This document shows positions 16,715 to 29,095 of a DNA stretch of 64,000 nucleotides, in pieces. The DNA is taken from positions 62,001 to 126,000 of the forward strand of contig NZ_ONZG01000012.1 in the NCBI RefSeq assembly GCF_900302455.1, read 5' to 3'. The position numbers and the translations under genes are program-made. The notes below the pieces were generated by a model. That model saw only the letters and a program-made list of their open reading frames with translations. It was not told the origin of the DNA and did no database searches. Each line of letters begins with the position of its first letter. The first letter of the stretch is position 1. This DNA comes from Falsiruegeria mediterranea M17. Its GTDB lineage: Bacteria; Pseudomonadota; Alphaproteobacteria; Rhodobacterales; Rhodobacteraceae.

Positions 16715-18754
16715 TCATCGCGTTTTGTGACCACCCCCGGCCTTTAGCGGTAGAGCGTATATTCCTGACTGCGCATCCGTCGCACTTTTCTCTTCGGCCA
16801 CCGTTGACACATCAGCTGTCTGACCCTCTTCAGGCGCCTGCAACGTGGCATTCGACAAGGACGTCGAACTCGTGTCGAGAACATCAGAGCAATCCGCCAA
16901 ATGGACGTCTGTCGAATTGCCGCCCGCTCGAAGGGACAACGTACCCAGGCGGGTCACCGGGCCAACTGTCCACAATGGCCGTGCTCGAACGTCGGTTTCC
17001 ACGTAAGTCGCTTCATCCTGATGTGTGCTCTGGCGAGCCCCTTGAACATCCCGCGGGAATGCAAGCGGCTCGTCATCTCTTTGGACGTTGATCGATGCAC
17101 ACAGGGTCGCGCCAGCCGCGTTCGTCAGGTGTAAACTGTAGTCTCCGTTTTGCACTGACTGCCCACGGTTCTTCTTGTTCAGACCCGGAGCGAATGCCAG
17201 AACTATGCGAGTCCTGGACGTGTTTTCAAACCGACGCACATAGGCGCGCGCAACCAGAAAGTCCCATCGCCCGGTGATCCGACGCTTTGCATCCCTGGTG
17301 TAGGACGGAAGGACAACGTCACCTTTTTCATCAAGGAATTCACTGCGGCTCAGTTTCAATTCAACCGCATCCCCGACAGGCCCCTTCAGGGTCAATGTGG
17401 CTCGGTTCAACTGGTCCAGCCAAACTTCGACAAAAGAAATGGACTGATCATCTGATGCTATCTTCCAGTCGATGTGATCTTGTTCGCCCCGGGGTAACCT
17501 CATCAAGACCTGGCTGTGCTGTCGCGACTTGTTGCTGTCAGGCAGGACAACGGCAGTCGCCACGCCTTCAGCGCTTCGTTGACGGGCCAGGCGTTCAATC
17601 TCAGACCGCAGAAAACCGACACCGTTTGGCGCGTCGGCAAAAACCTCGTGATTGATGCAAACAACAACCGGGACACGAGTTACTTTCCCATCTAAACCCC
17701 TCCAGTTGTCAGACCATTGAAACGCCCGGATCAAGCCGCTGAGAATGAAGAACTCCACCCGCCCACCCCAAGTTTCGGCTTTGGTCAATGGCGGCAACTG
17801 CACAAGCATGGCTGGCTCTGCGACATCAGCCCGTTCGCTGGGTAGATGGTCAATGAGACCATCCAACTGAGTTACATTGTAGTCGTTGACCTGCACAGCA
17901 CGCGCGGTCGTAACGGCATTCGGTTTGCTGTCTGCCTGAAAAATCCGGCGCCCGTTCGACCTCAAACAACGGTACAACTGGATCTCATCCACGGTGCCAT
18001 CGTAAACGACGTCATTATAGTCTGCGCTGACGTCTGTACTGTTCAGGCTGCGACCAAATTCCAATTCAGATCCATTGCGGGAGGCCACTTTTGCTTGCGT
18101 CCAACAACGTGCAAACCTGGACGAAAGGTGTGCCGTGTGATCGTCACCCTGACGAAAGACATGGTTGTTCCCGACTGTGTCCTGTTTGCCGATGAAACCC
18201 GACACGATCTTTTCACCCAAAGGGCGGTCGAATACAAAGTGATGCCAAACCTCCGGAGGCATTGTTCCGGTCATCGAATTGCGTGCGTAGCTCTTTGCGG
18301 CCCGAAAAACCCTGTCCAATGCGCACAGTTTTGTAGCAGCAATGGATTTGGAAAGCGGAAACCCGACGCCGATCTGCAGGGTTTCACATTCAGGCACCGC
18401 GTCATAGGCTTTTGCCTCGGGGCGGTAGAGGAAGAACCGCGTGAAACGTTCAACGTTCTCGCCAACCATTTCACCAACAATGATGTTCACAACGACAGGT
18501 AGGAAATCGGCATCATGCTGGATTGATCTCCCCTGATCTGTCTTGATCATGAACTTTACCAGCGATTTGATCGAAGACGTGAAATCGCCCTGCTCACCCC
18601 TGCACAGATCAACAAATACCGGCTTCCAGATCTGTGCATCATCAGCAAGTTTCGGTGATCGCGTTGCCTGTTCCCAGTCTTCATAGGGCTCGACGAAATG
18701 TGCCGGTTTGTGACCGGATACCACCGTCTTCGGCTCATCCCAGGTGATGTTCAT
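16715..18754 (-). CDS. degenerate subtilase-like (S8-type) protein, probably inactive
   Basis: The 679-residue protein has GGGAGGT six bases before ATG 18754. I do not recognise a named family for the N-terminal half. The region about 320-470 (AMLVQLPPLTKAETWGG, VTRVPVVVCINHEVF, GVATAVVLPDSNKSRQHSQVLM, SISFVEVWLDQ) follows the middle of large bacterial S8 peptidases. There the equivalents are an IAVQLPP segment, a VVNLSYG segment, the AGN oxyanion segment and an SFLEIWLP segment. The catalytic His motif (HGTHV) expected before that region is not visible, the AGN is replaced by DSN, and the protein ends without a GTSxAAP serine motif. There is no signal peptide. It sits between tex and the replication gene. 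The homology is inferred from memory of the family, not searched. Confidence 0.55.
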   Translation of the reverse strand: MNITWDEPKTVVSGHKPAHFVEPYEDWEQATRSPKLADDAQIWKPVFVDLCRGEQGDFTSSIKSLVKFMIKTDQGRSIQHDADFLPVVVNIIVGEMVGENVERFTRFFLYRPEAKAYDAVPECETLQIGVGFPLSKSIAATKLCALDRVFRAAKSYARNSMTGTMPPEVWHHFVFDRPLGEKIVSGFIGKQDTVGNNHVFRQGDDHTAHLSSRFARCWTQAKVASRNGSELEFGRSLNSTDVSADYNDVVYDGTVDEIQLYRCLRSNGRRIFQADSKPNAVTTARAVQVNDYNVTQLDGLIDHLPSERADVAEPAMLVQLPPLTKAETWGGRVEFFILSGLIRAFQWSDNWRGLDGKVTRVPVVVCINHEVFADAPNGVGFLRSEIERLARQRSAEGVATAVVLPDSNKSRQHSQVLMRLPRGEQDHIDWKIASDDQSISFVEVWLDQLNRATLTLKGPVGDAVELKLSRSEFLDEKGDVVLPSYTRDAKRRITGRWDFLVARAYVRRFENTSRTRIVLAFAPGLNKKNRGQSVQNGDYSLHLTNAAGATLCASINVQRDDEPLAFPRDVQGARQSTHQDEATYVETDVRARPLWTVGPVTRLGTLSLRAGGNSTDVHLADCSDVLDTSSTSLSNATLQAPEEGQTADVSTVAEEKSATDAQSGIYALPLKAGGGHKTR

Positions 18755-18999: not shown

Positions 19000-20271
19000 C
19001 TAGCTGTCTTCGAGTTCGTCAAAAGCGCCAGGGTTCATTTCCGCCCAGAACGCAAAGATGGCATTGGCGTTCAACGCTGATTGCCATCCATGGGTGCGGA
19101 ACTCCATCCGCTCAAGATCATCTTCCAGACCAGCCAAGAACAACCGTTTGTCCGCATCTCGCTGCGTGGGGTTTCGTCGCGAAACCAAGTTGGAAACGAT
19201 TTCAAACTTGCGGGCTCTTCTTGCGCGTTCGGCCAGCCGCATGTCCAACTCCGCATCTGCCTTGCGTTCTTGATCAAGACGTTCTTGGGCGCGTTGCATT
19301 GCTTCTGGACTCGGAGGTTTGACTTTGACCTCTTTCATCGAAAAGTCGTCCTTTAATGCAGCATTGAGGTATCCCGCAGCTGACTTGACGTCCGGCTGGC
19401 GCCGAACATAGTCCAGTTTCTGCGCAACGTAGTCTTCGCCATGTTCGGAAATCCACTGACGCGCCAAACGATCTGACACACCTTGGTCGATCAGCTTTTT
19501 GTAAACATCAAGGTTACGTATCCCCTCATCATCACCGATTTGAAACATGGCTAGCTGAGGGTTCTCCTTGATCAGGAACCGAATGTCCGCAACTGCCCTG
19601 CCCTTCTTCTTGAACTCGGGCGTGATTTCTATGTCTGAGTTCCGGTTCACTTCCGCCACCGCCGGTTTGATGATCTTGGCGTTAAGATGTTTGAAGCTCT
19701 CGTAGTAGTTCGATCCATCCACCCCCATCAACTTGCGAAAGATCTCAAGCGACCACCACCCCGTCGATCCGGTGCGCACGAACCGATAGCAGTTTTCATA
19801 CAAGGCTAGACCGTGGCCTGAGGTAAAATTCCTTTGAATGTGGACATTGATCAACGCATAGATTTTGGGGTCGTGCAGCTTTTGTGCCAAGGCGGGAGAG
19901 TAAGCGTATTCACAAACACCACTCTTGAGTTTGGCAAAAGATAGCAGCGAAGAGACACCCCATTCCTGTCGACCTTCCTCGTCCAACATGTCCCATTCCG
20001 CGACTGTCTCGGCCAAAGCTCGAAGGCTTGCCCTCAGCGTGTCCATGTCGTTGGAATTGTAACCGACCATGGTCGCCAAGGTGCGCGCATCAATGGTGTG
20101 GGTTTGGGCCGTGGTCAACGCGTCATAAGCATTTAGCAATAGAACGTTGGACAGCTTTCTCTGTAACAAGCTGAGCTTGCCGCTGATGTGTATGGCTGCC
20201 ACATTCTTTTTGACAGTTTCGCGGCGCAATGCGCCGGTTAACTGATCCATATCTATCTGTGCGCTGGTCAT
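19000..20271 (-). CDS. plasmid replication initiator (RepB/Rep_3-like)
   Basis: The 423-residue protein resembles theta-type plasmid initiators of the Rep_3/RepB superfamily. An early segment KNVAAIHISGKLSLLQRKLSNVLLLNAY begins the first winged helix. LYENCYRFVRTGSTGWWSLEIFRKLMGV, then YYESFKHLNAKIIKPAVAEVN, form the second winged helix typical of initiators that bind iterons. The C-terminus is a charged helical tail (AQERLDQERKADAELDMRLAERARRARKF). ATG 20271 was chosen; GTG 20304 is also in frame with AAGG upstream. It is divergent from parAB, with an iteron array directly upstream. Roseobacters use RepA, RepB, RepABC and DnaA-like replicons, and this looks like the RepB type. Confidence 0.8.
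   Translation of the reverse strand: MTSAQIDMDQLTGALRRETVKKNVAAIHISGKLSLLQRKLSNVLLLNAYDALTTAQTHTIDARTLATMVGYNSNDMDTLRASLRALAETVAEWDMLDEEGRQEWGVSSLLSFAKLKSGVCEYAYSPALAQKLHDPKIYALINVHIQRNFTSGHGLALYENCYRFVRTGSTGWWSLEIFRKLMGVDGSNYYESFKHLNAKIIKPAVAEVNRNSDIEITPEFKKKGRAVADIRFLIKENPQLAMFQIGDDEGIRNLDVYKKLIDQGVSDRLARQWISEHGEDYVAQKLDYVRRQPDVKSAAGYLNAALKDDFSMKEVKVKPPSPEAMQRAQERLDQERKADAELDMRLAERARRARKFEIVSNLVSRRNPTQRDADKRLFLAGLEDDLERMEFRTHGWQSALNANAIFAFWAEMNPGAFDELEDS
19170..19186. promoter_or_regulatory. parS-like palindrome inside rep
   Basis: GGTTTCG-TCG-CGAAACC has 7-bp arms and a 3-bp centre and lies within the 3' half of the replication gene. It matches three other copies near parAB (20690, 21515, 22264), which makes it a candidate ParB-binding site. 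Confidence 0.6.
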
Positions 20272-20308
20272 TTTTTTCTTTCTGCTCTGGATGAGTCGTC
20301 GCACAAAA

Positions 20309-20583
20309 GGTACCTTAGATCAAGTATCCATGGGTTCTTAACAGTCGTCCCGTATCCGGGTACCATCCGGGTTGGATGCCGTGAAGACGTGGTGAATTTC
20401 CGCCAATGAACCCTCTCGCAACTCGCTAAAAAACAAAGAATTGGACCAAAACAGGCTCTATTTAGCGGTTTTTGATGATACCGAGAATCGGTACCTCAGC
20501 TCACGCATTCCGGTACCCTTCCGCCTGTAGATGGGTACCTATTGAACCGAAGAAAGGTACCCGTCAGCCTGTTTATTGGTACC
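20309..20583. other. replication origin iterons (GGTACC array)
   Basis: GGTACC occurs at 20309, 20359, 20490, 20512, 20534, 20556 and 20578. The last five are spaced exactly 22 bp, about two helical turns, so Rep would bind one face. The bases between differ, so the conserved core is the 6-bp palindrome. The two promoter-proximal copies lie 38 and 88 bp from the rep ATG and may serve autoregulation. The array faces AT-rich DNA with a DnaA box, as in iteron-controlled plasmid origins. Confidence 0.78.
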
Positions 20584-20680
20584 TGGGTCGTTGTACTATG
20601 TTGAAATAACGAAATTTTCCCGTTCGAAAGATTCTAAAGTACTAAAAGAAATTAAACAGTTTGTTGTGTGGATAACTTGA
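20584..20680. other. AT-rich unwinding region with DnaA box
   Basis: The stretch after the last iteron is AT-rich (for example ACTAAAAGAAATTAAACAG) and contains TGTGGATAA at 20667-20675. That is a perfect DnaA box, TTATCCACA, on the minus strand. Together with the iterons this is the likely oriV core. Confidence 0.7.
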
Positions 20681-20689
20681 TAATTTTGG

Positions 20690-20708
20690 GGGTTTCGTCA
20701 CGAAACCC
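20690..20708. promoter_or_regulatory. parS-like palindrome between rep and parA
   Basis: GGGTTTCGTCACGAAACCC has 8-bp arms around TCA. It is the longest of four related palindromes and the only intergenic one, lying between the origin and parA. It could be the main centromere or partition operator. Confidence 0.68.
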
Positions 20709-20765
20709 AGCTAAGATCATTAATTCAGCTCATGCAGAACCAATTCTGGGTAGTCTAACTACATG

Positions 20766-20807
20766 ATGTTCGCTATTGTCCTCTACATACGCCGAAAAGG
20801 CGAACAT
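20766..20807. promoter_or_regulatory. inverted repeat in the parA leader
   Basis: ATGTTCGC (20766-20773) and GCGAACAT (20800-20807) are perfect 8-bp arms 26 bp apart, ending 11 bp before the parA ATG. A ParA-type N-terminal DNA-binding domain could use this to autoregulate parAB. Confidence 0.45.
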
Positions 20808-20818
20808 ACCGTGAGGCA

Positions 20819-22204
20819 ATGAAATTGAGCAAACAACCAACACAAACAGTGCCCCCATATTTGAACCTCAACCCCGAAGCTGCTGCAGCCCGTCTTCCTG
20901 ATCCTATAGATACAACAAGATTCGCCAAAGCCGCAGCTTTCTGTGCCAAAGGCCGCGAAGATTTGGCTCGCCGAGGGTATGCACCAGATGGTCAAAAGCG
21001 ACTGCGCAAGTTCTCGACCTGGGAAATTACAAAATACCTTATTCCAGTCGCCCCAGCTCATCTTCGTCGGGTTCTAAAGGCTAACCCCGAGTTGCCTCAG
21101 GGCGAAGGTGATGGAGGGTCAAAATGGTTCACTCTTGAAGAGGTCTTAACCCTACGCCAACACTTTGCAAGTGAGGGTGTGAGCACCAAGGAATACCTGC
21201 CCTATCGCCCGAAGGAGGCCCAGGCCAAGGTTGTTTCAGTTGCGAACTTCAAGGGCGGTGTCGGTAAGACCAGTACTGCAGCTCATTTGGCAATGTCAGC
21301 CGCCTTGGATGGCTACAAAGTGTTGGTCATTGACCTGGATAGTCAGGGGTCGATGACGTCAATTCTTGGCGGTTCCGTCCCTGACGAGTGGTCCACTGTA
21401 TTTCCGTTGATTGCCAAGGATTTTGCCAAATCGGTGACAGCAGAGAACGAAGTCCGACGCGCTGGAGGTCAGGCCGAGATTCCGTTGGACGAAACTTTGC
21501 AGGAAGCCCTGCAGGTTTCGTCGCGAAACGTTATTCAGAAAACCCATTGGCCAAACATTGATCTGATCGGGGCTCAGTTGAATTTGTACTGGGCCGAGTT
21601 TCAGATACCGGTCTGGCGAATGGGGTTGCGGTCCTGGCCTTTGTGGGATGGACTGACCAACTTTCTTGAGGATGAGGGAGTGTTGGATGACTATGACATC
21701 ATCTTTCTGGATACGCCCCCTGCCCTTGGCTATCTGACGATCAACGCGTTGGCCGCTGCTGATATCTTGTTGGTTCCACTTGGCGCTTCGTTCCTGGAGT
21801 TCGATTCAACGGGGCGTTTTTTTGACATGCTCTATTCGACATTTGCATCCATCGAAGATGGTGAAAACGCGTCCAGACGTGCAGCCAGTTTGCCAGAGAT
21901 GAAATTTGAGTGGGATGTGGTGCGTGCCATTGTCACCAGGTTTGACGCCTCACAACAGACGGACATGGCAAACGTGATCCAAGCCTATTTCGGAGATTTC
22001 ATGAATGCTTACCGCCAAGACTATACCGCATTGGTTGGTCAGGCAGGTGAGCAGGTCAACGGGATTTATGAAGCGGACTATCGTGAGTTCAATCGCGAAA
22101 CCTATGTCCGAGGACGCGAGACATTTGATCGGACTTACGCCGAATTCAAAGAACTGTTGATTGGGTGTTGGTGGAGAGACGTGAACCTGGAGGGCAATGA
22201 CTGA
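20819..22204 (+). CDS. parA: partition ATPase ParA (type Ia, plasmid)
   Basis: This 461-residue ParA is of the long plasmid type Ia. It has an N-terminal DNA-binding region (LRKFSTWEITKYLIPVAPAHLRRVL at about 60-84, then a KWFTLEEVLTLRQHF helix) and the deviant Walker A FKGGVGKTSTAAHLA. VLVIDLDSQGSMT is the A-prime motif and DIIFLDTPPALGYLT the Walker B. It moves plasmid copies apart with ParB bound at the centromere, and the N-terminal domain usually represses its own promoter. Its stop overlaps the parB start (TGATG). A GTTTCGTCGCGAAAC palindrome lies inside the gene. GAGG sits only two bases from the ATG, an unusually short ribosome site. Confidence 0.9.
   Translation: MKLSKQPTQTVPPYLNLNPEAAAARLPDPIDTTRFAKAAAFCAKGREDLARRGYAPDGQKRLRKFSTWEITKYLIPVAPAHLRRVLKANPELPQGEGDGGSKWFTLEEVLTLRQHFASEGVSTKEYLPYRPKEAQAKVVSVANFKGGVGKTSTAAHLAMSAALDGYKVLVIDLDSQGSMTSILGGSVPDEWSTVFPLIAKDFAKSVTAENEVRRAGGQAEIPLDETLQEALQVSSRNVIQKTHWPNIDLIGAQLNLYWAEFQIPVWRMGLRSWPLWDGLTNFLEDEGVLDDYDIIFLDTPPALGYLTINALAAADILLVPLGASFLEFDSTGRFFDMLYSTFASIEDGENASRRAASLPEMKFEWDVVRAIVTRFDASQQTDMANVIQAYFGDFMNAYRQDYTALVGQAGEQVNGIYEADYREFNRETYVRGRETFDRTYAEFKELLIGCWWRDVNLEGND
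21515..21529. promoter_or_regulatory. parS-like palindrome inside parA
   Basis: GTTTCG-TCG-CGAAAC is identical in core to the copy inside rep at 19171-19185. Its position inside an ORF argues for a selected site rather than a promoter element. Confidence 0.6.
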
Positions 22205-23268
22205 TGGCAAAACGTAGACGTTTGACGGCCCCAGACGCTGACACCCTGCGAGAGTTGGACGAAGGTTTCGCGGCGAAACCGGTGGACGCACTTTCGTTGA
22301 CGCCGCCAATTGCCCAGGTCGCAGGAGAGGCTGCGGCGCTTGCCGGCATGACTTCGGTCACGGATCGAGCGGAGCAGGCGCGAGACGCAGCAGATGCACA
22401 GCAGTTCCGGCAAGCCAAATCTGCAGGGCTTGTGGCGCAACCTATTGCACTGGATCTGATCGAAGCAGACTTTATCCGCCGGGATCGTCTGAACGAAGAC
22501 CCGGAAGCAATGGAAGAGCTTTTGACCTCGATCCGATCGTCGGGACTGCGGAGCCCAATCGAGGTTGCCGCACTTCCTGACGGGTTTGGTTTGATCTCGG
22601 GGTATCGTCGCCTCAAGGCGTTTCAGGTACTTGCGACCGAAGATCCCAAATTCGGGATGATTCCGGCTTATGTACGCGACGCAGATGCGGGGCAGGACGC
22701 CTATGTGTCCATGGTTGAAGAGAACGAGGTGCGCGCGAACCTGACGCCGTACGAACGGGGACGGATCGCGGTTCTGTCGACAGGGCAGGGTGTATTTTCG
22801 ACGGTGTCGGATGCGGTGGATGTATTGTTTGCGTCTGTTTCAAAAGCCAAACGTTCAAAGGTTCGCAGTTTTGCACTGGTGCATGAATGCTTGGGTGATC
22901 TGCTGCGCTATCCCTCAACGCTCACCGAAAAGGCGGGGTTACAACTGGCCGCTGCTTTGCGAGAGGGCGCACAAGCGGATCTAAGAGTGGCATTGGACAG
23001 TTCTGATTGTACATCGTCCGCAGAAGAATGGACCGTTTTGAGCAAGGTTCTGGCGAACCGGGGCAGGGCGGAAAAGGACCCCAGCAAAGGTGGTCGTCCA
23101 AGCAGCAATGTGCGGTTGCCCCTGGTTCAGGTGGAAGATGGCGCCGAGCTGCGTGGCGAGCTTTCAGCGAATGGTTTCCGGATCGAATTGTTTGGCCGCA
23201 AGGTAGATCCAACAACAGGAGAGATCATTTTGCGAGAAATTCGGCGTATTCTTGAAGACAAGGATTAA
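22204..23268 (+). CDS. parB: partition protein ParB
   Basis: A 354-residue ParB/Spo0J-family protein. The N-terminal ParB/Srx fold includes LIEADFIRRDRLNEDPEAMEELLTSIRSSGLRSPIEV and LISGYRRLKAFQVL (the GxRR-type box). VEENEVRANLTPYERGRIAVL leads into the central helix-turn-helix, and the C-terminus ends with EIILREIRRIL. It starts at ATG 22204, overlapping the parA stop. ParB binds parS and stimulates ParA. GTTTCG-N3-CGAAAC palindromes in and around parAB are the candidate sites. Plasmid-type ParB proteins recognise diverse centromeres, so the site assignment is inferred. Confidence 0.88.
   Translation: MAKRRRLTAPDADTLRELDEGFAAKPVDALSLTPPIAQVAGEAAALAGMTSVTDRAEQARDAADAQQFRQAKSAGLVAQPIALDLIEADFIRRDRLNEDPEAMEELLTSIRSSGLRSPIEVAALPDGFGLISGYRRLKAFQVLATEDPKFGMIPAYVRDADAGQDAYVSMVEENEVRANLTPYERGRIAVLSTGQGVFSTVSDAVDVLFASVSKAKRSKVRSFALVHECLGDLLRYPSTLTEKAGLQLAAALREGAQADLRVALDSSDCTSSAEEWTVLSKVLANRGRAEKDPSKGGRPSSNVRLPLVQVEDGAELRGELSANGFRIELFGRKVDPTTGEIILREIRRILEDKD
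22264..22280. promoter_or_regulatory. parS-like palindrome inside parB
   Basis: GGTTTCG-CGG-CGAAACC lies 60 bp into parB, with the same 7-bp arms as the copy in rep and a different 3-bp centre. This indicates that the arms, not the centre, are conserved. Confidence 0.58.
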
Positions 23269-24726: not shown

Positions 24727-25611
24727 GTGCCTACTGGATTAGCCCCTGCGGAATTGATCGCCGTTCTTGCTGCTGTGACTGACGATCAGCCTCGCGTCAT
24801 GACTTTGCGTGGCGGCGAAGCTTTGCCATCCGGCCCCTTTGAAACATCGCACCGCAGTTTGCAACAGAGCCTGCGGGCTTGGATCGAACGTCAGACAGGT
24901 CATCCTGTGGGGTACCTTGAGCAGCTTTATACCTTTGCCGACAAGGATCGAGATCCAAGGTCAGGGGAATTGACCGAAGAGGCCGGTCGGATCTCGATCA
25001 GCTATCTTGGTCTTGTGCGGGAACAGGATGCAGCCGGGATCGGACGCCCTGCGTGGTACAGTTGGTACAGTTTTTTCCCTTGGGAAGACCACCGCGATCG
25101 CGTGCCCGATGAATTGGTCGAAATCACGGATCGACTGGGGGTTTGGGCCCAAGATGATCCGGTGCGGCACCAGCGGGTTGATTACTTGTTCGGGGTAGGG
25201 GACAAGGCTTGGAACGAAGAACTGGTTCTGCAACGGTATGAGCTGATGTATGAGGCGGGCTTGGTTGACGCGCCACAGTTCGGTCGCCCGATGCAGGGCG
25301 ACAACCGCCGTATTCTGGCCACCGGCATTTCCCGCCTGCGCGCCAAGATAAAGTACTCGCCGGTTGTGTTCGAACTCATGCCCGAGAGCTTTACGTTGCT
25401 GCAATTGCAGCGCACGGTTGAGGCGTTGTCAGGATTACGTTTGCACAAGCCCAACTTCCGCCGTCAGATCGACCAGCAAAACCTGATTGAGGATACGGGC
25501 GAAATGTCGAGTGGAACAGGCGGTCGCCCGGCTCGCTTGTTTCGGTTCCGCACCGCAATTCTCGAAGCTCGAATGCTGTCGGGTGCTCGGCTGCCGCTTT
25601 CCCGCTCTTAG
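24727..25611 (+). CDS. nadQ: NAD biosynthesis regulator NadQ (Nudix-related, winged-helix C-terminus)
   Basis: A 294-residue protein that begins at GTG 24727. The N-terminal half is Nudix-like (PRVMTLRGGEALPSGPFETSHRSLQQSLRAWIERQTGHPVGYLEQLYTFAD split across strands). The usual Nudix catalytic GX5EX7REUXEEXGU box is not preserved. The C-terminal half carries a winged helix (YSPVVFELMPESFTLLQLQRTVEALSG) followed by NFRRQI. NadQ/NrtR-type proteins repress NAD synthesis genes in alphaproteobacteria. nadABC starts 101 bp downstream, and two dyads lie in its promoter. The same order is known from other alphaproteobacteria, which supports the call. The effector is not shown. Confidence 0.8.
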   Translation: MPTGLAPAELIAVLAAVTDDQPRVMTLRGGEALPSGPFETSHRSLQQSLRAWIERQTGHPVGYLEQLYTFADKDRDPRSGELTEEAGRISISYLGLVREQDAAGIGRPAWYSWYSFFPWEDHRDRVPDELVEITDRLGVWAQDDPVRHQRVDYLFGVGDKAWNEELVLQRYELMYEAGLVDAPQFGRPMQGDNRRILATGISRLRAKIKYSPVVFELMPESFTLLQLQRTVEALSGLRLHKPNFRRQIDQQNLIEDTGEMSSGTGGRPARLFRFRTAILEARMLSGARLPLSRS

Positions 25612-25712: not shown

Positions 25713-26684
25713 ATGAAAGATCTTCGTCTTCCCGACCTGTATGACCGGGTCAGCCAAATCATTCCTGCGCCCGAATGGATGCAGTACGAAGAGGATGTAG
25801 AGGCCATCTTGAAGCTCAAGCGTGAGAAGAACGCGGTCATACTTGCGCACAATTACCAGACGCCAGAGATTTTTCATGGTGTCGCGGACATCGTGGGCGA
25901 CAGTCTGGCGTTGGCCCGTGAGGCAGTCGAGGTCGACGCCGATGTCATCGTGTTGGCTGGTGTGCATTTCATGGCTGAAACGGCAAAGCTGTTGAACCCG
26001 GGAAAAACGGTGTTGATCCCGGATTTGGGGGCAGGGTGCTCGCTTGCGGATTCTATCACACCCGATGACATAGCTCTGCTGCGTGAGGCCCATCCCGACG
26101 TGCCAGTGATCACCTACGTCAACACATCAGCTGCGGTGAAGGCAGCGTCCGACATCTGCTGTACTTCGGGGAATGCTGTCAAAGTGGTCGAGTCTTTGGG
26201 CGTGCCCAAGGTTCTGATGATCCCGGACGAATACCTGGCCCGCAATGTTGCCAAGGAAACGGATGTGGAACTGATCGCATGGCATGGGCATTGCGAAGTG
26301 CACGAGCTGTTCACGCCAGAAGACGTGCGCGCCATGCGCGAGGCCTGGCCGGGGGTAACCGTGTTGGCGCACCCCGAATGCCCACCCGAAGTTGTGGCCG
26401 AGGCCGATTTTTCGGGCTCGACGGCCGTGATGTCGGACTTTGTGGGCGATCGGAAACCAGCGCGGGTGTGTCTGCTGACCGAATGCTCGATGAGCGACAA
26501 TGTGGCTCTGAACCACCCCGAAGTGGAATTCGTCCGCCCCTGCAACCTTTGCCCGCATATGAAACGCATCAGCCTGCGCAACATCCGCGAGGCGTTGGAG
26601 CTGGGTCATCATGAAGTCACCGTAGACCCGGCCATTGCTGATGACGCGCGCCGGTCTGTGGAACGGATGTTGGCCGTAAAATGA
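25713..26684 (+). CDS. nadA: quinolinate synthase
   Basis: The 323-residue NadA condenses iminoaspartate with dihydroxyacetone phosphate to quinolinate and needs a [4Fe-4S] cluster. Candidate ligands are Cys109 (GAGCSLAD), Cys194 (HGHCEVHE) and Cys280 (CNLCPHMK), matching the three conserved family cysteines. Substrate segments are AHNYQTPEI and [16 protein letters not shown] 25713 follows GGAG by eight bases. The stop overlaps nadB as ATGA. It is the first gene of nadABC, behind the dyad-bearing promoter and the regulator NadQ. Confidence 0.95.
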
Positions 26685-28222
26685 CCAGACTCGACGGGCT
26701 TCACGGCCAGGTTGCCATCATCGGCAGCGGCATCGCCGGGTTGATGGCAGCGCTGGAGTTGGCGCCGCGTCCGGTTGTGCTGATCACCCGCTCAGGGTTG
26801 GGGCAGGAAAGCTCGAGCGCCTGGGCGCAGGGGGGCATAGCGGCGGCATTGGGTGCGGATGATGATGTGGCCCTGCATCTGGCGGATACGCTGGCGGCGG
26901 GTGATGGGCTGTGCGACGACGCCATAGCTGCCGAGATCTTGTCGGAAACGAGCGAGGCGATCGCGACCCTTGAGCACCATGGCGTTGCCTTTGATCGAAC
27001 CCCAAGCGGTGCATTTGATTTCGGACGTGAGGCGGCTCATTCGCGCCGCCGCATTTTGCACATCGATGGTGACGGCACAGGGGCCGGGATAACCTCGACC
27101 CTGGTTCGGGCGGTGCAGAACTGTTCGTCTGTCACCTGTCTGACTGGAGCTGATGCACGCCGCCTGATGGTGCGCAACGGCCGTATCGTTGGGGTGCATC
27201 TGCAAGACGATGATGGTGCCGCGATTCTGCGCACGGGGCTGGTCATTTTGGCAACCGGGGGCTGTGCCGGTTTGTTTGATGCCAGCACCAACCCATCGGG
27301 CAATTTTGGCGCCGGGCTGGCCATGGCGCTTGTTGCCGGTGCAGCTGTGCGGGACATGGAATTCATGCAGTTCCATCCCACCGCTCTTGCCACCACGCGC
27401 GCGCCTCTGGCGTTGATCAGCGAAGCGGTCAGGGGCGAGGGCGCGATATTGATCGACCAGAGTGGCCGCCGCTTCATGTTGCAGACGCCAGGTGCCGAAC
27501 TGGCCCCGCGAGATGTGGTCGCGCGGGCGGTGCATGAGGTGATTACTGACGGCGGGCGTGCATACCTGGACGCCCGTAAACCCTTGGGTGCGCGGTTCAA
27601 GACGCGGTTTCCAGGCATCCATGCCTTGTGCCAATCAGATGGCATCGACCCGGCGGTGGACCCGATCCCGGTGCGTCCAGTCGCGCATTATCACATGGGC
27701 GGGGTCGCTGTGGACAGACAGGGGCGCAGCACTGTGCCCGGCCTTTGGGCCATTGGGGAATGTGCGGCCACCGGCCTGCATGGTGGCAATCGGCTGGCCA
27801 GTAATTCACTGCTCGAGGCCGTGGTGATGGGACGCCGCGCAGCTCGTGATGTCGCCAGGCAAGAGGGTTTCACTCCTCTTGTGGAAACAGACCCACCTGT
27901 GTTGCAAAAGGCGAACCCCTCAACACTCCATCCCGTTATTTCACAAGAACTGGGCGTGACCCGTGACGGCGCGGGTTTGGGCCGGGCCATGTCTTGGCTT
28001 GAACCTTATGTCCAAACGGGTGATGCCGCCGCCGACCCCGCTCTGGTGGCCCTGTCTGTCGCGGTCTTTGCCGACCTGCGCCGCGAATCCCGTGGCGGTC
28101 ACTATCGAAGCGACCACCCGGATCCCGCGCCTAATCCCCGGTCGAACACGATGACTCTGACCGAAATTCTGGCCCATGCCCAAAGCGCAAACGCGCACCC
28201 CCAGTTGAAGAGACAAGCCTGA
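26681..28222 (+). CDS. nadB: L-aspartate oxidase
   Basis: The 513-residue flavoprotein oxidises L-aspartate to iminoaspartate for NadA. The FAD motif is [17 protein letters not shown] at residues 11-27. Family motifs follow: [26 protein letters not shown]-like ([17 protein letters not shown]), [11 protein letters not shown], and the C-terminal [10 protein letters not shown] and [15 protein letters not shown]. The length is normal for NadB. It begins within the nadA stop (ATGA) and is followed three bases later by nadC, so the three genes form one translationally coupled operon. Confidence 0.95.
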
Positions 28223-28225
28223 CCA

Positions 28226-29095
28226 ATGCACCTTATGCCCCTTACCCCACTGCCAAAAACGATCATCGAACCCGCAGTTCGCCGCACCCTTGCCGAAGAC
28301 CTGGGCGAGGTTGGCGACATCACCTCGAACGCTGTCATCCCGCCCGGTCACACCGCCCAGGTTGTGGCCAGTGCACGTCAGCCCGGAATCATTGCCGGGC
28401 TGGATTGCGCCGAGTTGGCCTGCGCTTTGGTGGACCCCGCCATTACCATGACCCGCCATGTTGAGGATGGGAATGCCGTCACCCCCGGCGCGCGTGTTGC
28501 CACGTTTCACGGACCGTCGCGCAGTCTGATGGTGGCCGAACGGACGGCCCTGAACTTTCTCGGTCACTTGTCCGGTATCGCAACGGCCACCGCTGGACTG
28601 GTGCGGGCCATTGATGGCACAAGGGCGGCGATTGCCTGTACTCGCAAAACAACCCCGGGCCTGCGCGCGCTAGAAAAATATGCGGTTCGCGCGGGGGGCG
28701 GTGTCAACCATCGCTACTCGTTGGCGGATGCAGTGCTGATCAAGGACAATCATATCGCCATTGCGGGTGGCGTGACCCCGGCTTTGACAAGCGCCAGGGC
28801 AAACGTCGGTCACATGGTCAAGATCGAGATTGAGGTCGATACGTTGGAGCAGCTGGCCGAGGTGCTCGAGATTGGCGCGGATGCGGTTCTGCTGGACAAT
28901 ATGAGCCCGGCAACTCTGCGTGAGGCCGTTGCAATGATTGACGGGCGCGCCATCGCCGAGGCTTCGGGTGGCATTACACCAAGCAGTGTTCGAGCGGTCG
29001 CCGAAGCTGGTGTCGATCTAATCTCGTCTGGCTGGATCACACACAGCGCGTCGTGCCTGGACATAGGCCTGGATTTTGTGCCGTTTGGAAGCTGA
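28226..29095 (+). CDS. nadC: nicotinate-nucleotide pyrophosphorylase (carboxylating), QPRTase
   Basis: The 289-residue enzyme turns quinolinate and PRPP into nicotinate mononucleotide. Hallmarks are [54 protein letters not shown] and [18 protein letters not shown] and EASGGI complete the phosphate-binding barrel. ATG 28226 was used; an in-frame ATG nine bases on is also possible. It is the last gene of nadABC. The 152 bases after it, to the convergent monoamine oxidase gene, hold only a 6-bp TGAACG/CGTTCA dyad and no clear terminator. Confidence 0.95.

Follow-up and report, generated by a model that had tools for sequence, protein, structure and literature searches.

The window analysed here, a stretch of 64,000 nucleotides from Falsiruegeria mediterranea M17, contains a replication and partition module made of the genes rep, parA and parB, and inside this module are found four palindromes of the form GTTTCG-N3-CGAAAC. 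With a probability of about 90%, we consider these palindromes to be the parS (centromere) sites of the ParB encoded by the replicon itself, which appears to be of the RepB-I type. The presence of the sites, their exclusiveness in the genome, their conservation, a constraint acting at the level of the DNA and their association with this family of ParB proteins were established directly.

Site 1 (19171..19185, GTTTCG-TCG-CGAAAC) lies inside the 3' part of rep, which is encoded on the minus strand, and is read there as V-S-R-R-N. Site 2 (20690..20708) is a longer palindrome of 19 base pairs (bp) with perfect 9-bp arms (GGGTTTCGT-C-ACGAAACCC); it is intergenic, about 127 bp before parA, and its exact 15-mer (20692-20706, centre TCA) stands between a DnaA-box-like site and parA. 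Site 3 (21515..21529, GTTTCG-TCG-CGAAAC) covers codons 233-237 of parA (V-S-S-R-N) and site 4 (22265..22279, GTTTCG-CGG-CGAAAC) codons 21-26 of parB (G-F-A-A-K-P). The original prediction, made from the letters of the window alone, had placed the four palindromes exactly, copies 1, 2 and 4 being listed with longer arms (GGTTTCG... or, for copy 2, the 19 bp at 20690-20708). It had also seen no further copy in the 64 kb, and our pattern search found no fifth exact copy either in the window or in the 5.28-Mb assembly: the exact motif occurs four times in 5,278,962 bases, always in the rep/parA/parB module, versus two occurrences of a reversed control pattern, and the many scattered copies that would have spoken against a centromere are therefore absent from the source genome. 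When one or two mismatches were allowed, six more places appeared in the window, for 3.44 expected in all. With rates of 2 to 4 copies per genome, the Poisson probability of finding four of them in 3.1 kb is 8e-14 to 1.3e-12, and chance was rejected as their source on these counts and this clustering. The four sites are thus palindromes which stand close to the origin, within a parAB operon or next to it, and which are rare elsewhere in the genome, as expected of parS, the rarity holding for the source genome but not for all its relatives.

The conservation of the sites was studied in 121 related par modules chosen by the similarity of their ParB, among which 72 have a Rep_3 replicase, like the window, 37 a RepA replicase and 12 no replicase in the stretch read. 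Written with its five-base half-sites, the 15-bp site is GTTTC-N5-GAAAC, and we designate the sites by the number of bases between the half-sites (N5, N6 and so on). The Rep_3 modules present mainly N5 sites in 59 cases, mainly N6 in 10, both evenly in one and none in two; for the RepA modules the figures are 31 N6, two N5, one even and three none, and for those without replicase five N5, three N6 and four none. After removal of duplicates (L087 and L138, which left 70 Rep_3 modules, then L110, L044 and L082, which left 67), an N5 or N6 palindrome was found in 65 of the 67 Rep_3 modules and at least two in 63; leaving aside the nine loci obtained from a search one of whose query peptides spanned site 4, they were found in 56 and 54 of 58, respectively. 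Palindromes occupy the 5' end of parB in at least 56 of these 67 modules, the intergenic region in 40, parA in 35, the region downstream of parB in 33, rep in 27 and other places in five, all these counts being lower bounds as some of the stretches end before every station is reached. The numbers of palindromes for spacings N0 to N12 in the 70 Rep_3 modules were 0, 2, 1, 2, 1, 186, 26, 0, 1, 0, 0, 0 and 2, and six control palindromes gave 0 to 5 at every spacing, so that spacings other than N5 and N6 correspond to background. Judged by this comparison, the palindrome is conserved with its cognate parAB in the relatives (65/67), another property expected of parS; the search in relatives proposed originally also brought up four genomes, picked for their high counts, with 11 to 19 copies, many of which lie outside the module. 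The 186 N5 sites of the 70 Rep_3 modules qualified the description of the 3-bp centre as variable: the centres do differ, but they are constrained to Y-N-R, with C or T in 99%, then mostly C or G, then G or A in about 99%. The site is therefore a palindrome of odd length built around a single central base, next to which the symmetry is not always perfect.

Three of the four sites are inside genes, and two comparisons indicate that the DNA word, rather than the peptide, is selected there. At the 5' end of parB, the palindrome is read as G/SFAA/TKP (GFAAKP-like) in 30 modules, as E/RFRxET (EFRRET-like) in 20, through a frame moved by one base, and as GFARET or GFACET in six, through one extra base in the centre. 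One palindrome having three translations, it is the DNA and not the peptide which is conserved. At codon 233 of parA, V-S-x-R-N is found in 36 of the 72 ParA rows associated with Rep_3 (duplicates included) and in none of the 36 associated with RepA; 35 of these 36 are written GTT-TCG-n-CGA-AAC, despite the fact that GTT accounts for only 17% of the valine codons and CGA for 9% of the arginine codons of these parA genes. Conservation of the peptide alone was rejected as a cause by these frame and codon tests, and the selection inside coding sequence supposed in the original prediction proved right. Taken together, the comparisons of sequences (conservation in relatives, codon choice and frame-slipping) lend strong support to its centromere reading.

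The proposed reader of the sites is the 354-residue ParB of the module (22204..23268, plus strand), which presents a ParB N-terminal domain (PF02195), a middle part predicted to be helical and resembling a helix-turn-helix, and a C-terminal beta-beta-alpha region; its best sequence matches in the PDB are Noc and ParB entries. A GYRRLKA stretch resembles the motif that binds cytidine triphosphate (CTP). Strong matches to this ParB (E<1e-60, at most five candidates scored per genome) were found in 69 of 394 genomes, 56 of which are represented among the 121 modules; the counts at the genome level (copies, co-residence and module pairs) start from hand-compiled lists, and the 325 other genomes were counted by hand. 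At least two N5 copies are present in 57 of the 69 genomes; among the 325 others, which include holders of weaker matches, 35 have at least two and 11 at least three. Eight strong-match genomes have no N5 copy, and seven of these eight carry N6-only modules. These whole-genome counts are less affected than the table of modules by the choice made on ParB. Moreover, the 69 strong matches are distributed over 69 different genomes, for 5.6 doubles expected if they were placed at random over the 394 (probability of none, 0.002), and 22 of these genomes also hold, among the matches listed, a weaker and mostly RepA-type ParB: with one strong copy per genome, this ParB behaves like a compatibility group. 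The ParB tree, computed with eight rows left out (and L190 giving no ParB match), splits a RepA-type set with mostly N6 sites from a RepB-type set with mostly N5 sites, the exception being L111, labelled RepA and found in the RepB-type set. A scan of the residues (two more rows left out; 60 N5 versus 9 N6 rows) showed no helix-turn-helix column tracking the spacing. Residue 214, at the start of a predicted helix, is K in 69/69 RepB-type and R in 29/30 RepA-type rows, a contrast which is confounded with the clade.

Binding of ParB, clamp loading, spreading, partition and autoregulation are what we infer from the biology of ParABS systems. A dimer of ParB would bind each site with one helix-turn-helix per GTTTCG arm, then probably load there as a CTP-dependent clamp and spread, and ParA would move the ParB-DNA complex so that each daughter cell receives one copy. 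Distributed from the interior of rep as far as the beginning of parB, the sites bracket the likely origin, with its 22-bp iterons and DnaA-box-like site, and the intergenic site 2 may in addition let ParB repress parAB. We would attribute the location of three copies inside genes to the compactness of the module and to a selection on the DNA word so strong that it dictates the local peptide.

Several observations weigh against this scenario. The palindrome is missing from two of the 67 Rep_3 modules and from three of the 37 RepA modules, among them, in the stretch read, the Phaeobacter inhibens-like loci L136 and L158, although their ParB is inside the RepA group. Four genomes picked for their high counts (G133, G396, G334 and G288) contain 19, 19, 13 and 11 N5 copies, many of them far from the module. 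Of the 325 genomes that lack a strong match to ParB, 106 have one N5 copy or more, which means that single copies say little. Since similarity of ParB was the criterion for picking the modules, part of the link between ParB and palindrome follows from this choice. The one-per-genome pattern, with at most five candidates scored per genome, could come from incompatibility by Rep as well as by parS. Finally, the structural model of ParB is of moderate quality (mean predicted local distance difference test 72, predicted template modelling score 0.43), and the structures which it retrieved in a fold search, those of Noc, ParB and KorB, have low TM-scores over the whole chain. As separate observations, a changed or lost centromere is a candidate reading for L136 and L158, and the extra palindromes of the four high-count genomes could be distal parS sites, sites of other readers or an effect of composition.

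Other functions were considered for the palindromes. That they serve as operators through which ParA, ParB or Rep regulates rep and parAB, and not as centromeres, seems to us very unlikely: site 2 does occupy the usual place of an operator, before parA, but the three other sites are inside coding sequence, 33 of 67 modules have a palindrome downstream of parB, and related palindromes accompany two types of replicase without mutual similarity in tblastn. An additional operator role for site 2 may nevertheless exist. We give still less credit to sites for the binding or handcuffing of Rep, which would control the initiation of replication. The palindromes flank the origin and one of them is inside rep; against this, the likely iterons of Rep_3 form a separate 22-bp GGTACC array, and the same half-site is found in RepA-replicase modules where the Rep_3 query finds nothing. 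As for words kept by shared descent and protein conservation with no function of the DNA, suggested by the location of sites 1, 3 and 4 in conserved genes whose peptides are also conserved among close relatives, they are extremely improbable: the shift of frame at the parB station, where the palindrome is translated in three ways, already contradicts them, as do the rare-codon words in 35/36 cases at parA codon 233, the intergenic copies in 40/67 modules and a spacing which is usually uniform in each module.

The parS sites proposed here belong to a module in which rep (19000..20304, minus strand) encodes a Rep_3 initiator (PF01051 and PF21205) of 434 residues when counted from the first GTG; the true start may be at residue 12, since it is there that several of the matches obtained by tblastn in relatives begin. 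In the opposite direction, parA (20819..22204, plus strand) encodes a Walker-type partition ATPase of 461 residues with an N-terminal extension. Between them are five iterons with a GGTACC core at exact 22-bp steps (20490..20583, starting at 20490, 20512, 20534, 20556 and 20578), which likely constitute oriV; in the whole genome, the exact 22-bp pairing of GGTACC is found only at this array (4 pairs). Two further GGTACC, at 20309 and 20359 near the start of rep, are likely the rep operator. A DnaA-box-like motif (TTATCCACA, 20667..20675, minus strand) lies between the iterons and site 2, a motif which by itself is not rarer than chance within the window, and the minimum of the cumulative GC skew of the window falls between rep and parA. 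By these features, the gap between rep and parA looks like an iteron origin with its partition operon. The same module is present on plasmids of Phaeobacter, Ruegeria, Tritonibacter and others (PLSDB). By homology to replicons printed as RepB-I, it is of the Rhodobacterales RepB-I kind, with a Rep_3 replicase divergent from parAB. It does not belong to RepABC, for its replicase is Rep_3 and divergent from parAB, and TIGR03453 and TIGR03454 scored below cut-off. Near the par genes are nadA, nadB and nadC (25713-29095; nadB named from its place and translation alone) and an NrtR-type regulator (24727-25611). No nadA other than that of the window was found in the assembly, and for this reason the replicon is a likely chromid. 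On the other side, beside rep, is a 679-residue open reading frame (16715-18754, minus strand) for which Pfam, NCBIfam and PADLOC returned nothing at E 0.001.

Comparison with known systems makes it possible to situate these sites. The 72-kb replicon of Dinoroseobacter shibae and pDSM107133_b of Pseudosulfitobacter are named RepB-I in print, a type of the Petersen classification. Both have, like the window, a Rep_3 replicase divergent from parAB and the same order of the module. The first, pDSHI05 (L135), shares with the window 61% identity for Rep, 80% for ParA and 44% for ParB but has a single N6 site, unlike the four N5 of the window; the second (L189) shares 64% for Rep and 43% for ParB and has three N5 sites. 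Three N5 sites were also found in the stretch read of pPGA1_78 (L039), which we take to be a RepB-I replicon. Conserved palindromes in DnaA-like modules are reportedly mentioned in the abstract of Petersen 2011. Our literature search, which did not cover that article, the likeliest place for one, met no printed palindrome for RepB-I or RepA-I, and priority is thus uncertain.

The claim of a distinct class of centromere survives in part. The sites are distinct from the chromosomal parS (TGTTTCACGTGAAACA), to whose family they do not belong: the latter, three copies of which stand beside the parAB of the source chromosome, has a 4-bp gap instead of five, inner bases AC/GT instead of GY/RC and an outer T instead of G. 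They are distinct as well from the RepABC palindromes of Rhodobacteraceae, for instance TTAACAG/CTGTTAA, which also mark compatibility groups but, in the accessible part of the literature, are 14 bp long without spacer, have other half-sites and belong to a repABC operon. On the other hand, the GTTTC half-site is common to the chromosomal parS and to the RepA-type replicon of the same cell. This replicon (C7) has the GTTTCG half-site of the window and shares with it 67% identity for ParA and 35% for ParB, but RepA-type sites are mostly N6 (GTTTCGCNNGCGAAAC) with an outer T in 91% of the N6 sites, number zero to five per module and accompany another replicase. Moreover, an odd-length parS with one free central base and another half-site is already listed for a secondary replicon, chromosome II of Vibrio cholerae (NTTTACANTGTAAAN), and a parS at the 5' end of repB has been described in Rhizobiales. 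The Bsr centromeres of Burkholderiales (PMC5450999, in the part available) likewise show related Par systems with similar parS coexisting in one genome; they are 16-bp palindromes with a central CG whose specificity comes from base changes and not from spacing. Separately, other palindromes near par genes could be the parS of other groups: GTCCCC-N2-GGGGAC, twice, in pPGA1_262 (L137); TGGGGT-N3-ACCCCA, three times, in L166; and TTGCCC-N2-GGGCAA, twice, in pDSM107133_h (L190), named RepB-III in print.

A single pattern search of the source genome returned nine sites: three N4 (GTTTCACGTGAAAC) beside the chromosomal parAB, the four N5, one N6 (GTTTCGCGCGCGAAAC) beside the RepA-type parB and one elsewhere on contig C18. 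Among the 63 Rep_3 modules with at least two sites, 53 are all-N5, seven all-N6 and three mixed; most modules thus keep one spacing throughout, as would be the case with a single reader protein for all the sites. N6 appears in several places of the ParB tree of the Rep_3 set, with at least seven label changes, four of them forced by well-supported branches; RepB-type modules have thus changed their spacing on several occasions, in general at every site of the module. The left outer base also differs, being G in 82% of the N5 and 88% of the N6 sites of Rep_3 modules, and T in 91% of the N6 and 88% of the N5 sites (8 sites) of RepA modules. Both types of module could be read in 20 genomes, the groups being assigned by the ParB tree where the stretch held no replicase. 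The RepA module is devoid of palindromes in two of them (G101 and G179); in the 18 others, the spacing differs in 16 and is common in two (G133, N5/N5, and G296, N6/N6), where the RepB and RepA modules differ by the outer base only. In these genomes, G predominates as outer base in all the RepB sets; T occurs in all the RepA sets, although in G000, G003 and G213 it is only tied with C or A. A strict spacing code is weakened by the two genomes with common spacing and by the mixed modules (L012, L102, L178 and L188). For the pair L111/L191, considered for a test of replicase swap, the picture is blurred by another gene resembling parA and by a RepA replicase, both downstream, and by the fact that no Rep_3 was found on the 13.5-kb contig. 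A close ParB group (L102, L104, L141 and L178) which includes all-N5, all-N6 and mixed modules offers a natural test set for the tolerance to spacing.

These results provide a sequence-defined candidate centromere for a widespread type of plasmid and chromid of marine bacteria, named in print by its replicase. The parB station constitutes a clean natural case of a DNA-binding word which, inside a gene, dictates the protein sequence in three readings. More tentatively, since two genomes have a common spacing and mixed modules exist, co-resident replicons of Rhodobacterales using one half-site (GTTTC) could be told apart largely by spacing (4 for the chromosome, 5 for the RepB type and 6 for the RepA type), with the outer base, G or T, as a backup. 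The spacing would then be a compatibility code switched repeatedly by ParB lineages, each switch changing the sites of the module together with the peptides encoded there, a reading we regard as possible and somewhat doubtful. The ladder of 4, 5 and 6 bp in one cell poses in any case the question of whether spacing alone can decide which ParB binds which replicon.

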